Assembly (NCBI GenBank): GCA_035559535.1
Contig: DATMBG010000032.1
Location: 1-64,000, forward strand
Direction of reading: 5' to 3'
DNA from: Candidatus Limnocylindrales bacterium
Lineage (GTDB): Bacteria > Moduliflexota > Moduliflexia > Moduliflexales > JAUQPW01
DNA: 64,000 nt
Position 1 is the stretch's first letter; each line of letters opens with the position of its first letter. The position numbers and the translations under genes were made by a program. Below the pieces are notes generated by a model that was given only the letters and a program-made list of their open reading frames with translations, ran no database searches and was not told the origin of the DNA. Positions 30,246 through 37,345 of this stretch are shown here, one piece after another.

Positions 30246-33200
30246 TTAGGGGACTTCATAGATACTGATGGTCCCTGTTCCTTCTCCTACGGCGAGAAGC
30301 TTACCATCGGGGCTGAAAGCGATCGATGAAGTGACATACCCTGATTCAGACAACGTTTTAATTATTTGACCACCGGCTACATCCCAAAGGGTTAGAGAAT
30401 GATTTTCATCGGCCCCTTCAGAAACCAATATCCTCCCGTCCGGACTAAATAGAACCCTTCCGGTACTGAACACTGTGTGAAGAACCTGACCGCTTTCTAC
30501 ATTCCACAGGGCTACTTTACCCAGCTCATCCTTTAAGGCAAGGAGTTTACCGTCAGGACTAAAAATTATAGAAGATAAGGGTAGGGAAGAATAGATCTCC
30601 CGCTGTAAAGTTTTTATAACCTGGCCGGTTTGAGCATCCAGGAGCAGGACTGAGTTGTTTCGACTAATCACAACCAGGGTTTTGAAATCGGGACTGACGG
30701 TAACATATTGGATATTTCCTATATCCGTCAACTCTACCCGTGAGTTACTCCGGACCGGGTTAAAGAAAAAACCATACAGGGGGAAGACCTGCAAAATTCT
30801 GTCCACCCCTCCACTTTCCCTGTTCCAGAACAAAATAGAATCCTGACTTTGAGAAGCCAGCAATTGAGCATCCGGACTAAAAAACAGGGAAACAATATCA
30901 CTGGAAGGACCGGCCAATACCTTGGCAATATCTACGGCCCTTACATCCCAGAGAAGGAGTAAGCCGTCCTCACTTCCTGTAGCTAATAAGCGATGTACCG
31001 GATCAAAGGCCAGGGAAGTAATTTTGTGATCTGTACCGCTTAAAACGGTAAGCGTTTTACCACTGCTTACCTCCCAGGAGGCAAAGGTCTTATAGCCCGG
31101 ATTACCCATTGCGGCGATAATCTGACCATCCGAGCTGAAGGTGACAGAAGAAACAGGTACCTCGGATTTTTCAAAAGTTTTAATGAGACTCCCCCGCTGA
31201 CTATCCCAGAGAGTTACCTGATCCTGTAAAAGGGTGGCCAAGAATCGCCCATCGGGACTAAAGACGACCGGACCTGTAAAACCTGAACTTTCTAAGCTTG
31301 TAAGCGTACTCCCTTTAGTTACATCCCACAAAATGATTTTATCATATCCCCCCGACGCAAAGACTTTACCATCCGGACTAAAGGAAAGAAAATCAAAGGG
31401 GCGGCTTGCCTCAAATGTTTTCAAAGGCTGCCCGGTAGTTCCATTCCAGAAAATAATTTTGCCATAACTGGTGGTAGCCAGCAGATTCTCCGAACTAAAT
31501 ACAAGACCCGTAATAGGGGTCTCATGCCCTTTAAGGGTCTTTAAGACCTGGCCATTTTCGATGCTTCGAAGGGCTATCCAATTCTGTTGGGGGCCCGTGG
31601 GAGAGATTAAAAATTTACTATCCGGGCTAAACACCAGAAGCCTAGTGGGAAGTTCGGACTCTGGAAGGGTCAAAATTGCGTTCCCATTCTGGACGTTCCA
31701 GAGTACTACTTCTGAGTGATCCGAGGAAATCAATGCCTGACCACTTGGACTAAAAAGAAGAACCTGAACAGGGTCCTTATGCCTGGCGAGCTTTTTTACC
31801 ACTTTCTTCACCTCTACATCCCACAAAACAATCTGATTATCCTTTGTAACCAGGGCCAATAACCTTCCATCCGGACTAAAAGTCAGGGGGGCATTTTCAA
31901 GGGGGTCTTGGTTAAGGATCACAAAGGTATCTCCTGTTGGGATATCCCACAGTAAGACGGTATCCGAAACCAGAACCAATTGTTTTCCATCGGGTCGAAA
32001 GACCAGATTATGAATCCGATGGTGAGGGCCTCTAAAGGATTTTAAAAGTTTTCCACGTTCCAGATCCCAAAGAAAAATAGGATGATCCGGGCCTGTACCT
32101 GCAGAAGCTAAGTAGTAACGACCGCTGGAATCCTTTTTACTAAAAGCAAGGGAGGTTATCGGGGTATCATGGCCTTCCAGAACTTTAAGTAACTTCCTGT
32201 CGGCCAGATTCCATAAAGCCACTTTTTTATCTGAGCTTCCGGCTGCGAGGGTCTGGGCATCCGGACTAAAGGAAAGAGATTGAATTGAACCCGGGTGAGA
32301 TTGACTGACCTGAAGAACCTGACCATCTTCTGCATTCCACAGGCTTATAGCCCCCCCGGCAACTCCCAACGTGCGACCATCCGGACTGTAGGTTACAATC
32401 TGAGGAAGGTCGTAATCTGTTGAAAAGGTCTTCACTACCTGATTCTCCAAAATATTCCATAAAATGAGGCTTTTATCCGTACTCCCTAAAACCAGAGTAT
32501 GGCCGTCTGGGCTGAAATCGGCAGATAAAATCCTTGCAGAAGAACGATCCATCAAAGAACTGGTAGGTAAAGAAGTATTTCCGTTCTGACTTGATAAAGG
32601 AGGAAGACAGGGTTGAGTACTTCCGCAGTCTGGAGAGGTAACCATCGAAGTATTGTTCCTGGCCTGTTGAAGGAAAGTTTCTGTAAGCGTGGCAACCTGC
32701 CTTCGGTTCATGGGATCCCACAAAACGAGGGTTCCATTTCTATCGATAGAGGCCAAAAGTTGGCCGTTAGGACTGAAAGCTATTTTATAAATCTCGGATC
32801 CATATTGTTCTAAAGTTCCCAGCAGGGATGTGGCACTCTGGATCCCACCCGTATTCCAGAGTAGGATTTTTCCATCATCTCCCCCTGAAGCCAGTAACTT
32901 TCCTTCTGGATGAAAGGCCAGGGTATTGATCCATCCTGTATGTCCTTTTAGCCTCCCTATCTTTTCTCCCCTGTCTGGATTCCAGAGTGTAACCAGATTA
33001 TCATAACCCCCTGAAGCTAAAAGCTGCCCATCAGGACTGAAGGAAAGGGCCAGGACTTTCTGATCTGTCTGTAGAGTTTTAAGCAAGTTTCCGCTTTTCA
33101 AATTCCAGAGAACAATATTATTTCCCTGGGCAATAGCTACTCGATCTCCACTTCGATCCACCGCCATGGCGGTATAGGGTTCTGAAGAAGCGTTAAAGGT

Positions 33201-33482
33201 ACGAACGAGTTGTAAAGTCTGGGCGTCCAGGAGTTCTAATCGATCTGGAGTTAAGCCTACTAAATACTTACCTTCCGGTAGATACTGAAGATTTTTAAAT
33301 TCCGCCCCACGTCCCAGTTTAAAAAGAGGCTCTTGAGCTCTGGGACGCAGGGATGGGGTTGATTTAACCTGTGAAGGCTGAGCGGGGGGTTTAATGGGTT
33401 TTGAAGGAGTTCCACAACTTATTACAAAGATCAGAATCAGCAATGTTCCAAGAACAGGTAATTTAATGCTATTCATAGGCAA
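30246..33482 (-). CDS. very long WD40-repeat lipoprotein
   Basis: A 1078-residue surface or periplasmic lipoprotein. The signal peptide ends in lipobox VISC with Cys23, followed by a Pro/Lys linker. The rest is WD40-like blades, about 23 by counting the recurring LWD/LWN followed by G-x-x-L-K-T-L, each preceded by FSPDG-type turns. That is enough for three propellers of seven or eight blades, with no other domain attached. Such proteins act as protein-binding scaffolds. The gene stands alone; its partner is unknown. Confidence 0.9.
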   Translation of the reverse strand: MPMNSIKLPVLGTLLILIFVISCGTPSKPIKPPAQPSQVKSTPSLRPRAQEPLFKLGRGAEFKNLQYLPEGKYLVGLTPDRLELLDAQTLQLVRTFNASSEPYTAMAVDRSGDRVAIAQGNNIVLWNLKSGNLLKTLQTDQKVLALSFSPDGQLLASGGYDNLVTLWNPDRGEKIGRLKGHTGWINTLAFHPEGKLLASGGDDGKILLWNTGGIQSATSLLGTLEQYGSEIYKIAFSPNGQLLASIDRNGTLVLWDPMNRRQVATLTETFLQQARNNTSMVTSPDCGSTQPCLPPLSSQNGNTSLPTSSLMDRSSARILSADFSPDGHTLVLGSTDKSLILWNILENQVVKTFSTDYDLPQIVTYSPDGRTLGVAGGAISLWNAEDGQVLQVSQSHPGSIQSLSFSPDAQTLAAGSSDKKVALWNLADRKLLKVLEGHDTPITSLAFSKKDSSGRYYLASAGTGPDHPIFLWDLERGKLLKSFRGPHHRIHNLVFRPDGKQLVLVSDTVLLWDIPTGDTFVILNQDPLENAPLTFSPDGRLLALVTKDNQIVLWDVEVKKVVKKLARHKDPVQVLLFSPSGQALISSDHSEVVLWNVQNGNAILTLPESELPTRLLVFSPDSKFLISPTGPQQNWIALRSIENGQVLKTLKGHETPITGLVFSSENLLATTSYGKIIFWNGTTGQPLKTFEASRPFDFLSFSPDGKVFASGGYDKIILWDVTKGSTLTSLESSGFTGPVVFSPDGRFLATLLQDQVTLWDSQRGSLIKTFEKSEVPVSSVTFSSDGQIIAAMGNPGYKTFASWEVSSGKTLTVLSGTDHKITSLAFDPVHRLLATGSEDGLLLLWDVRAVDIAKVLAGPSSDIVSLFFSPDAQLLASQSQDSILFWNRESGGVDRILQVFPLYGFFFNPVRSNSRVELTDIGNIQYVTVSPDFKTLVVISRNNSVLLLDAQTGQVIKTLQREIYSSLPLSSIIFSPDGKLLALKDELGKVALWNVESGQVLHTVFSTGRVLFSPDGRILVSEGADENHSLTLWDVAGGQIIKTLSESGYVTSSIAFSPDGKLLAVGEGTGTISIYEVP

Positions 33483-33528: not shown

Positions 33529-33554
33529 TCAAGCGAGGACGCTTAACCTACCTA
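33529..33554 (+). repeat. AAACG-AGGA-CGTTT hairpin repeat, copy 3
   Basis: TCAAGCGAGGACGCTTAACC with trailing TACCTA. The stem here is AAGCG/CGCTT: both sides changed relative to the other copies, so pairing is kept. It ends exactly at the stop codon of the ThiF-like gene. Confidence 0.75.
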
Positions 33555-34034
33555 GGTGCCCGGATCGAAAACTCTTATATCGGCCAGGGTTATCTCTCGA
33601 TTGAATCTGCGTCCATCTCGAATAAAGATAGCGATAATTTCTGCGACCGTACAAACGACCATGAGGATCAGAGAACGAGAAAGCGCGACATTACAGGGAG
33701 CCTCTGGAAGTGCAGCCGCCTCGTCCGCGATAATCGAACCGTATTTATAAACCTCATTCCATTTTACTTCGGCAAATCCATCATCACTCATACCGGCATG
33801 GATACAGGGAATACCCAATGCCGAACATTCCTTGCCTATGGCTATCCGTGAAGTCCAGTTATCAAAGGTATCCACAACCAGATCGGAACCCTTGAGTAGA
33901 GACTTTGCATTTATCGGGGTAACTTCAAACGAGGACGTTTGACCTACTAACCAACCAAATCGCGCTTCAGGACGTAATACAATCGTTGAAGGATAGGTAT
34001 CTATTACGTAATTCTGGAGTATACCCTCTTGCAA
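33552..34034 (-). pseudogene. N-terminally truncated ThiF/MoeB/HesA-family adenylyltransferase
   Basis: 160 codons from a TTG; the frame stays open to about 34130 but has no ATG. The C-terminal half of an E1-like ThiF domain is present (VVDTFDNWTSRIAIGKECSA, LGIPCIHAGMSDDGF). The N-terminal glycine-rich ATP site (GxGGLG) and the following DxDxVExxN segment are absent, and the bases upstream encode nothing like them. Two copies of a dispersed hairpin repeat lie in it, one encoding LVGQTSSFE in frame and one at its 3' end. It is most likely a decaying fragment; a short, altered protein is less likely. Confidence 0.65.
33925..33949 (+). repeat. AAACG-AGGA-CGTTT hairpin repeat, copy 4
   Basis: TCAAACGAGGACGTTTGACC with trailing TACTA. 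It forms a perfect 7-bp stem TCAAACG/CGTTTGA with an AGGA loop. It lies inside the ThiF-like reading frame. Confidence 0.75.
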
Positions 34035-34411: not shown

Positions 34412-35728
34412 ATGAATATTAATTTCTATCACCTCAAGGACCTTTCCAGGTCAGCACGAGACCGATTATTGGAACGAACCCGAGTCGATGCCGAAGAGTA
34501 TGCCGCGTTAGTTAAACCCATTCTTGAAGAGGTTCGAAGGCGCGGTGATCTGGCCGTCATCGAATATACCCAAAAGTATGACGGGGTCGATCTATCCCCC
34601 CATCAACTCAAAATTTCCGAAGCAGAGATTAAATCTGCCTATCAGCGACTTTCTTCTTCTGTTCTTAAGGCTATAGAAACGGCCATTGCCCATGTTCAAG
34701 CTTTTCATCAGAAACAGATGCCGGAGTTATTCTGGATGACTGAGTTATTTCCCGGGATCCAGGCAGGTGAAAAGATTACGCCTATTGAATCGGTAGGGTT
34801 ATATGTTCCCGGGGGGAGGGGATTTTTTCCTTCCACCATGATCATGCTGGGAATTCCAGCCGTGGTAGCTCAAGTTCCTCAAATTGTTGTTTGTACGCCC
34901 CCTTTAAAGGATGGTTCTGTGGACCCAGCTACTCTGGTTGCGGCGGATCTCTGTGGAATTAAAAATATTTATCGAGTTGGAGGGGTTCAGGCCATGGGAG
35001 CCCTGGCTTATGGTACCGAAACCCTTCCTAAGGTCCTTAAAATTATAGGTCCCGGTAGTACCTATGTGACGGCAGCAAAACGAGTTTTGCGAGATGAGGT
35101 CGATGTAGGAATACCCGCCGGTCCCAGCGAATCTCTTATACTGACCGATGATACGGCAGATCCCTATCTGGCCTGTCTGGACCTGTTAATCGAGGCAGAG
35201 CATGGCTCTGATTCATCTGCTTACCTGATTACCTGCTCTGAAAGAGTAGGTCGGGCGGTTCGTCAACTCCTTCCTTCTCTTTTAGAAAAGGTACCCGAAT
35301 GGCGGAGGAAATTTTGTGAAGCTGTCTTTTCTACCTATGGGGGTATTATTATTGCGGAAGATTTAGATGAGGCCATCGCCTTTGTCAATGACTTCGCTCC
35401 TGAACATTTGGAGATCTTGTGCGAAAATCCTTTTGAGATTATGAAAAAAGTTAAAAACGCTGGGGAGATCCTTCTGGGAGAATATACTCCCATTTCGGCT
35501 TCGGTTTATGCCCTGGGAACGAATCATGTTCTTCCCACCACAAGATTTGCCCGGACATACTCGGCTTTATCGGTTTATGACTTTCTCAAAAGAAGTTCTA
35601 TTAGTTATTTAACCCGAGAAGGATTTGAAACTCTTAAAGATCCTGTTATAGCCTTAGCGGAGTATGAAGGATTTTTTACCCATGCTATGGCTGTTCGGGA
35701 ACGAAGGTTCAAATCTGAAAAGGACTGA
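34412..35728 (+). CDS. hisD: histidinol dehydrogenase
   Basis: A 438-residue zinc enzyme that oxidises L-histidinol to L-histidine with two NAD+, the last step of histidine synthesis. Hallmarks are GLYVPGGRGFFPSTMIM, PPLKDGSVDP, GPGSTYVTAAKR, IPAGPSESLIL and EAEHGSDSSAYL, which includes zinc-binding and catalytic residues; PEHLEI follows. Length and start are standard. No other his genes are here. It runs 3 bases before the Hfq-like/ParB-like gene, so the two are co-transcribed. Confidence 0.96.
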   Translation: MNINFYHLKDLSRSARDRLLERTRVDAEEYAALVKPILEEVRRRGDLAVIEYTQKYDGVDLSPHQLKISEAEIKSAYQRLSSSVLKAIETAIAHVQAFHQKQMPELFWMTELFPGIQAGEKITPIESVGLYVPGGRGFFPSTMIMLGIPAVVAQVPQIVVCTPPLKDGSVDPATLVAADLCGIKNIYRVGGVQAMGALAYGTETLPKVLKIIGPGSTYVTAAKRVLRDEVDVGIPAGPSESLILTDDTADPYLACLDLLIEAEHGSDSSAYLITCSERVGRAVRQLLPSLLEKVPEWRRKFCEAVFSTYGGIIIAEDLDEAIAFVNDFAPEHLEILCENPFEIMKKVKNAGEILLGEYTPISASVYALGTNHVLPTTRFARTYSALSVYDFLKRSSISYLTREGFETLKDPVIALAEYEGFFTHAMAVRERRFKSEKD

Positions 35729-35731
35729 TTT

Positions 35732-37345
35732 ATGGGTAAATTAACCCAAATCATTAAAATCAATGAGGCTCTTCAAAAAGGAGATCGAGAAACCGCCGTT
35801 AAACTTTTGAAAGATTTGAAAAAAAGAGCCAAGGATCCCGCTGCCATCAAATTTGCTGAGGATAAATTGAGGGAGTTGGGAATCCGCAATGAGGAAGTAG
35901 CAGAAGGGACGGTTATACGGGAGTATGAGAAGATAGAGCTTAAACCCAAAGGTAATCCTTCGGGTCGTCCCTATGGGTTTCGTAATCCGAGCTTTTCAGA
36001 TAGGAAAATGAGGGTCCAGGAAACTACAGGGTTAAGGACCCGGAAACCGGAGTTACGTTCCCATCAAAGCCCTACCAAGAGACCTTTTACTCAAAAACCG
36101 AAGATAGGTCGGGAGGTGCTGAAGTCCCCTGTCGAGGAAGGTAAGAAGGCAACCGTAAGGCCAGTGTTTCCACATCCTGTTGCTCCCAAATCTCCATCAG
36201 CCTCAACTACACCGGTCCAGAAGAAGCCTTTTAAGAAGAAACAGAAATTTAAACGTAAATCAAAGCTCCTGACTCCTGAAGAAATGGCTCGAAAGGAGGC
36301 AGCTCGTAAGTTAGTTAATACGTACAAAATCAGTTTTACCGGGGCCTATCAAATTGTAGATGGAAAATTAACCCTGGAAGAATATCAGGCCAAGCAGGCA
36401 GAACTGGCGGCTAAACGTGCTGCCTGGCAAGAACAGCGACGAAAACGGGAAGAACGCAAAGCAGCCGCGTTGGCCCTGGCAGAAAAATATAACCTGGATC
36501 CGAGTATTACTTATCAGATTGTAGATGGCCGCTTTACCTTGGAGGAGTATTTGAAGTTAAGGGAATTAAAACCTAAAAAGCTTCTCCTTCGCCGAAGAAA
36601 GGAAGGGGTGGGAAGTTGGTACTTCCAACAGCTCCTGCAACATCAAACCCCCCTCGTTTTTGTACTCTATAATGGACAATCCCTGGTGAGCCCTATCACA
36701 GAAATACAAAAGTATGATTTTCGCCTGGGAGAGCAAATAATTCCCAAACTGCATATTACCCATTGTTACGAAGCCAGCCAGGCCGAAAAGATCAAAGAGT
36801 TGATTCTGGTCAATGAAGAAGTCAAGGCGAAAGGTTTGGTTCCGGCTATCAAACCCATTGACCGTTATCTAATTCCGGATAAGGATTTGGAGCGCTGTCT
36901 GGAAGAAAAAAATCTTGTAACCTTTACAACACTGGGAGGTGAAGTCATCCGAGGCGTAATCGAATGGCTTGATAGTTTCCAGATTAAAGTTAATTTACAA
37001 GAAAATATGGGGGTTGTCGTATTCCGACATGGAATCCACGATGCCATCCTTCAACCGGAAGTTGGAGAAGCATCTGGACAGGCTCCCCCACAACTTGAAA
37101 AAACCCCTGTGGAAATTCCCATTGAAAAAATCTCTGTGGAGTTGGCCATTCATCAAAATACCCGATTGAATCCGGAGATAACTCAAAAAGTTCGGGAACA
37201 GACCAAAACCCTGGGGAAAATTCCGAAGCCGATCTGGGTTGCCTACGATAAAGAACGAGATGTATATGTTTTACTGGACGGGTTTCGGAGATTGACCATC
37301 GCCCAAGAATTAGGATTAAAGACTTTACCGGCAGTGGTCGAGTAA
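35732..37345 (+). CDS. double Hfq-like (Sm) and ParB-like domain protein
   Basis: A 537-residue protein of a kind I do not recognise as named. Residues 1-55 are helical. Residues 60-180 are basic and probably disordered. Two copies of a helical motif follow at about 191-222 and 246-275, sharing YQIVDGxxTLEEY. Residues 295-345 resemble Hfq (helix FQQLLQHQ, then PLVFVLYNGQSLVSPITEI). Residues 385-440 resemble Hfq more clearly: LERCLEEKNLVTFTTLGGEV, then VIEWLDSFQIKV and VVFRHGIHDA, which parallels the YKHAIST motif of Hfq Sm2. Residues 463-537 are like a ParB/Srx N-domain (IHQNTRLNPEIT, LLDGFRRLTIAQELG). This suggests an RNA-binding regulator; its nuclease or CTPase ability is unknown. It is co-transcribed with hisD. 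Confidence 0.8.
   Translation: MGKLTQIIKINEALQKGDRETAVKLLKDLKKRAKDPAAIKFAEDKLRELGIRNEEVAEGTVIREYEKIELKPKGNPSGRPYGFRNPSFSDRKMRVQETTGLRTRKPELRSHQSPTKRPFTQKPKIGREVLKSPVEEGKKATVRPVFPHPVAPKSPSASTTPVQKKPFKKKQKFKRKSKLLTPEEMARKEAARKLVNTYKISFTGAYQIVDGKLTLEEYQAKQAELAAKRAAWQEQRRKREERKAAALALAEKYNLDPSITYQIVDGRFTLEEYLKLRELKPKKLLLRRRKEGVGSWYFQQLLQHQTPLVFVLYNGQSLVSPITEIQKYDFRLGEQIIPKLHITHCYEASQAEKIKELILVNEEVKAKGLVPAIKPIDRYLIPDKDLERCLEEKNLVTFTTLGGEVIRGVIEWLDSFQIKVNLQENMGVVVFRHGIHDAILQPEVGEASGQAPPQLEKTPVEIPIEKISVELAIHQNTRLNPEITQKVREQTKTLGKIPKPIWVAYDKERDVYVLLDGFRRLTIAQELGLKTLPAVVE

Follow-up and report, generated by a model that had tools for sequence, protein, structure and literature searches.

Post-transcriptional control of the Hfq type is central in bacteria, and many phyla are without a recognisable hfq. 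The window discussed here, which is the whole 64,000-nucleotide stretch of DNA that was analysed, contains an open reading frame whose product was described in an initial annotation as a new class of RNA-binding regulator, with two Hfq-like domains, two YQIVDG repeats and a ParB-like domain in one chain. The question raised by this locus is whether such a chain is a genuine relative of Hfq and, if it is, what work it might perform in its host. The frame begins with ATG and encodes 537 amino acids at positions 35732-37345 of the forward strand, on which all features of the gene given below also lie, while the opposite strand is rich in stop codons. The gene as a whole is assigned here to a tandem-Sm (tSm) protein.

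The tSm gene directly follows hisD (34412-35728, forward strand), assigned by eye as encoding histidinol dehydrogenase. Only 3 nt separate the hisD stop codon from the tSm start codon, and an AAGGA sequence upstream of the tSm gene overlaps the 3' end of hisD. This gene order is repeated in the sister genome (GTDB record JAUQPW010000051.1, “bacterium isolate JZ-2.bins.100”), the sole genome of the same genus compared, where a full-length copy of the protein with 92% identity is present. Between the two genomes, dN/dS is 0.10 for the YQIVDG repeats, 0.11 for Sm unit 1, 0.10 for the second half of the Sm region and 0.05 for the ParB-like tail, the latter being among the lowest values in the protein, and 0 for the N-terminal hairpin, where no amino acid has changed; the corresponding values are 0.09 for hisD and 0.81 for the basic linker. 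Judged from this pair of sequences, purifying selection acts on all domains except the linker. Given the closely similar sister copy and these low ratios, the features first noted in the protein are not products of chance, and each of them is under constraint, which the linker is not.

Among the loci examined, the linkage to hisD is confined to the genus of the window, and a search across phyla for a conserved genomic or operon partner of tSm genes returned none. An origin of the window gene from a phage or plasmid was rejected, as tblastn against plasmids and phages gave no match and a scan of viral contigs gave no relative. The reverse strand of the window also holds a 1078-residue lipoprotein-like protein composed, by eye, almost entirely of WD40-type repeats (30246-33482) and a 160-residue frame resembling a fragment of a ThiF/E1-type adenylating enzyme, likewise by eye (33552-34034).

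Two Sm units in a single chain

The motifs quoted in the initial annotation, LVFVLYNGQSL, LVTFTTLGGEVIRG, VVFRHGIHDA and LLDGFRRLTIAQELG, are all present in the protein. Sm unit 1 spans residues 293-347 (36608-36772) and Sm unit 2 residues 383-440 (36878-37051), each as a helix followed by five strands, with two short helices modelled by AlphaFold between them at residues 348-366 (36773-36829). The AlphaFold model of the 157-residue double-Sm region produced this helix and five-strand order twice, with a pLDDT of 93.8 and a pTM of 0.89, the latter high enough to suggest that the two units are held in a fixed arrangement. When this model was compared with the PDB using Foldseek, the 50 best matches were all Hfq, at TM-scores of about 0.7-0.9 relative to the target, each match spanning about one Sm unit. 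Fold matches in BFVD were uninformative, consisting of large-rmsd repeats or single Sm-like barrels.

The sequence evidence is strongest for the second unit. Searches of Pfam, NCBIfam and the PDB with the single protein touched Hfq in unit 2 only, and below cut-off: the Pfam match to Hfq had an E-value of 0.0014-0.0021 (PF17209, 18.1 bits against a cut-off of 27) and the NCBIfam match an E-value of 5e-5 (TIGR02383, 23 against 61.7), and unit 1 is too divergent to give any Pfam match. A profile built from 42 relatives, by contrast with the single sequence, reached Bacillus subtilis Hfq (3ahu) in the PDB at an E-value of 2e-8 through unit 2, followed by dozens of further Hfq chains. In profile-profile comparison against a small Hfq set, unit 2 scored a probability of 98.6 and unit 1 a probability of 85% (E 6e-6), a result that is merely supportive for unit 1 owing to the single-comparison E-values and the small size of the set; the two units compared with each other scored 74. 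In one relative (L012), unit 1 matched Hfq_1 at an E-value of 3e-5 and unit 2 matched Hfq at 1e-4, both below the Pfam cut-off. The proposal of two Sm units in one chain is thus borne out by structure prediction and by the family profile. An Sm fold is virtually certain for unit 2 and very probable for unit 1, and the resemblance to Hfq is one of homology rather than coincidence.

The residues retained in each unit are of particular interest with respect to RNA. Unit 2 carries FRHG, a KH-type Sm2 motif that places Arg432-His433 where Hfq has Lys56-His57. Of the 42 relatives, 35 share the Arg and 37 the His of this motif. In unit 2, Gly403 and Gly408 are invariant among the relatives. At the equivalent place in unit 1 the Lys alone is kept (38 of 42), so that the near-invariant Lys339 occupies the position of Hfq Lys56 and no His accompanies it. 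These correspondences to Hfq numbering were read by eye from alignments. Such a pattern would be expected if both units serve an RNA face and their roles have diverged.

The window protein therefore shares with Hfq (PF17209, TIGR02383) and the Hfq-related PF21979 a modelled Sm fold in both units, the G-x4-G loop and the basic-His pair at the KH position, in the form of Arg-His in unit 2. Unlike Hfq, it combines two non-identical units in a 537-residue chain with a long N-terminal arm and a ParB-like tail, falls below the curated Hfq cut-offs and lacks the His in unit 1.

The N-terminal arm, the YQIVDG repeats and the C-terminal tail

The arm begins with a helical hairpin at residues 1-55 (35732-35896), which is TPR-like by eye only and is 33% identical to the N-terminus of two other tSm proteins (L115 and L117). 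It is followed by a basic linker at residues 56-180 (35897-36271), which has a net charge of +23 and is probably disordered. Two repeats of 42 residues each (36290-36415 and 36455-36580) then precede Sm unit 1, with the YQIVDG motif at residues 206 and 261. They are 43% identical to one another and are modelled by AlphaFold as helical with a pLDDT of approximately 95, so the duplication first seen by eye has proved to be a real helical repeat. The same double repeat lies upstream of tSm in genomes G351 and G507, which belong to one phylum. The G507 repeat was not in the set from which the first repeat model was built, and it matched that model at an E-value of 3e-12. This member was detected apart from the repeat search of 385 genomes, in which full matches were limited to the genus of the window and G351, the remainder being short and weak. 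The lack of other full matches in those genomes suggests that the repeat is tied to the tSm family. Because the repeats are basic, helical and adjoin an Sm unit, docking of RNA or of a partner is a natural guess for their role.

The C-terminal segment, residues 463-537 (37118-37342), contains the motif GFRRLTIA and is constrained, although its model is of low confidence. Aligned alone to Pfam ParB_N (PF02195) it gave an E-value of 8e-4 and 19.9 bits against a cut-off of 26.3, and in the PDB it matched ParB at an E-value of 0.016 and the free serine kinase at 0.07, with 7o0n and 5x0j among the matches. AlphaFold returned a pLDDT of only about 50, probably because a single tail-bearing relative was available, with a helix-strand-strand-helix order that is compatible with the ParB/Srx fold. 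The N-domain of ParB/RepB/Spo0J and SerK share with the tail roughly 75 aligned residues, a GxRRxxxA motif and a compatible order of elements; the tail differs from them in its sub-threshold score, in the lack of a helix-turn-helix and a dimer domain, and in its placement after the Sm units. The ParB-like part extends for 75 residues before the chain terminates, and neither a helix-turn-helix nor a C-terminal dimer domain was found.

The tail claim of the initial annotation accordingly survives in part. The similarity is present, the segment is strongly constrained and the predicted order agrees, whereas the scores remain sub-threshold and the model poor. A ParB/Srx fold is likely on this evidence, and binding of a nucleotide by the tail is doubtful. 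The suggested link to a DNA- and CTP-binding partition function was not upheld, and a ParB partition protein is ruled out by the missing helix-turn-helix and the score below cut-off. Weak matches of the window protein to HABP4, MnmG, KfrA and similar families were at chance level.

A family across phyla, its fusions and the distribution of Hfq

Relatives in several further phyla were found when 385 genomes were searched with the single protein, and the tSm module is now placed in at least seven phyla, that of the window included. G319, G042 and G187 represent one of these and G046 and G191 another, with G347, G098, G351 and G074 outside those two and outside one another's listed phyla. The module is most prevalent in the phylum of G319, where it occurs in 81 of 85 genomes and in all 56 of those of good quality, with up to five copies. 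More divergent copies over both units were found in G130 and G266 (E 6e-9 and 2e-9); both of these genomes also have, at the N-terminus, a hairpin that shares 33% identity with residues 6-64 of the window protein. A profile search of the 385 genomes gave a clean split: tandem proteins scored above 100 bits across the whole profile, in contrast to single Hfq proteins, which aligned to its second half only, at about 30-50 bits; the divergent G130 and G266 copies scored about 38 bits. Of the tSm proteins in its genome, the window protein is the larger. What the members of this broad family have in common is the double Sm, whereas the ParB-like tail was confined, among the loci examined, to the genus of the window, the other tSm relatives being without it. 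As first stated, the layout has no named family, in that no family model covering it was found in the libraries used.

The module is frequently joined to other domains. An N-terminal cold-shock domain was recognised by Pfam at E-values of 1e-20 and 1e-14 in two relatives, and the cold-shock fusion is the commonest tSm form in the phylum of G319, in nearly every genome of which it occurs. Further fusions in that phylum involve Sacsin/TmtA, a UvrD helicase with GIY-YIG and GrpE, GmrSD_N, and an RNase-H-type exonuclease. In L074 (1545-5576) and L080 (738-4196), one chain comprises a UvrD helicase, a GIY-YIG nuclease, GrpE and tSm, a combination of which we know no other example; the L074 protein additionally bears S1, and it is this S1-bearing protein that PADLOC matched to GajB. 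Sacsin-like ATPases (PADLOC TmtA) carry tSm at the C-terminus in L072 (1027-4758) and at the N-terminus in L075 (4495-8355). L076 (1213-4593) joins GmrSD_N of type IV restriction, which we take to belong to the ParB/Srx fold class, to two tSm-like stretches with a cold-shock-like domain after each of them, and L079 (3376-4464, reverse strand) joins an RNase_H_2-type domain, resembling a 3'-5' exonuclease, to tSm.

The genome of the window itself has a second, stand-alone tSm gene, encoding 142 residues, on contig C12 (L034, 6682-7110), which overlaps by 4 nt a gene for an Eco57I/TaqI_C N6 methylase (L034, 7107-9395). The product of this second tSm gene reaches the Hfq_1 cut-off (27.1 against 27). 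In the sister genome, the corresponding gene carries an in-frame TAA stop.

A stand-alone Hfq was not found in the genome of the window, nor in any of the 33 genomes checked, where every Hfq-model match that reached threshold lay inside a tSm protein. Hfq matches above cut-off occurred in only 62 of the 385 comparison genomes (16%) and were missing from 84%. Owing to this rarity, the absence of Hfq from tSm genomes (0 of 13, against 62 of the 372 others) is not significant (Fisher p = 0.14), and replacement of Hfq by tSm, while plausible, is unproven as a statistical claim.

A different tandem Hfq protein of 167-174 residues is encoded beside a response-regulator gene in L141 (542-1045) and L142 (635-1159). 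It resembles the window protein in having two Sm units per chain at similar spacing and differs from it in a near-canonical second unit (YKSAIST), the lack of extra domains and its co-occurrence with a normal hfq. From this separate protein it follows that two Sm units per chain arose more than once or are older than they look. FlgV (BB0268) was formerly annotated as the Hfq of Borrelia. It is a two-transmembrane flagellar protein (PMC11607428), and although it, like tSm, has been linked to Hfq in phyla that are little studied, the window protein is without its two-transmembrane layout. No description of a tandem or double Hfq/Sm protein, or of an Hfq-cold-shock fusion, was found in the open-access literature, a search whose limitation to such papers leaves novelty unproven. 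The Sm fold is known, and a tandem family that combines this layout with such fusions is apparently undescribed.

Proposed function and its alternatives

The window protein is, with reasonable probability, a tandem-Sm RNA-binding scaffold that assembles as a three-chain, Hfq-like ring, performs work of the Hfq type and bears a genus-specific tail. In such a model, the two different Sm units of one chain would be held in a fixed arrangement, and three chains would close into an Hfq-like ring of six units with the two unit types alternating. U-rich RNA would bind the Hfq-like face through Lys339 of unit 1 and Arg432/His433 of unit 2, while the N-terminal hairpin, the basic linker and the YQIVDG repeats may add docking for RNA or partners. 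The ParB/Srx-like tail would be an add-on of the genus, possibly nucleotide-binding, and the whole would probably carry out Hfq-type post-transcriptional work in genomes that lack hfq. Confidence differs among these parts: RNA binding appears quite likely, the three-chain ring has about an even chance, and Hfq-like regulation falls slightly short of that.

The enzymes to which the module is fused invite another explanation, that tSm is mainly a nucleic-acid sensor in defence or mobile-element conflict systems, in which case the window protein would be a domesticated relative and not a global regulator of the Hfq type. The Sacsin/TmtA, GajB-like UvrD helicase and GIY-YIG, GmrSD and exonuclease fusions fit this explanation, as do the overlap of the second tSm gene with a methylase gene and the interrupted sister copy. 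It is nonetheless unlikely, as the window gene is stable behind hisD, intact in both genomes and without a match among the PADLOC defence models, and in the phylum of G319 the module most often takes the form of the cold-shock fusion, whose presence in nearly every genome looks like housekeeping. The conserved basic residues bear on a further possibility, that the Sm units form a scaffold, protein-protein or ribosome-associated, which has no sequence-preferring RNA binding and is possibly coupled to translation or to histidine synthesis. Sm-like barrels can be purely structural, and hisD lies directly upstream across the 3-nt gap; the conserved Lys and Arg-His at RNA-contacting positions of Hfq, the recurrent fusions to cold-shock and S1 domains, which bind nucleic acids, and the restriction of the hisD linkage to one genus among the loci examined make this scaffold improbable. 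The active part might instead be the tail, as a nucleotide-hydrolysing or kinase-like enzyme that the Sm units just target to RNA or DNA. Its very low dN/dS, the resemblance of GFRRLTIA to the nucleotide-binding motif of ParB, the matches to ParB and the free serine kinase and the joining of GmrSD_N to tSm in another phylum speak for such an enzyme, but the matches lie below curated cut-offs, the model is poor, and the tail comprises only some 75 residues, which no tSm relative outside the genus possesses, so that this, too, is improbable, and marginally more so than the scaffold.

Returning to the RNA-binding ring, a broader and distinctly tentative proposal is that tandem-Sm proteins constitute a third branch, of ancient origin, among the Sm proteins of bacteria, beside single-domain Hfq and its direct relatives. 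This branch would form heteromeric rings from one gene and fill the role of Hfq in several phyla that lack it, and defence proteins of the restriction, helicase and Sacsin types would have put it to new use as a module for sensing RNA. The tSm family provides a concrete candidate RNA chaperone for bacteria without a recognisable hfq and would be a bacterial counterpart, made from one gene, of the heteromeric Sm rings found in eukaryotes. Where the module is fused to defence-type enzymes, the systems concerned may include a step of RNA sensing.
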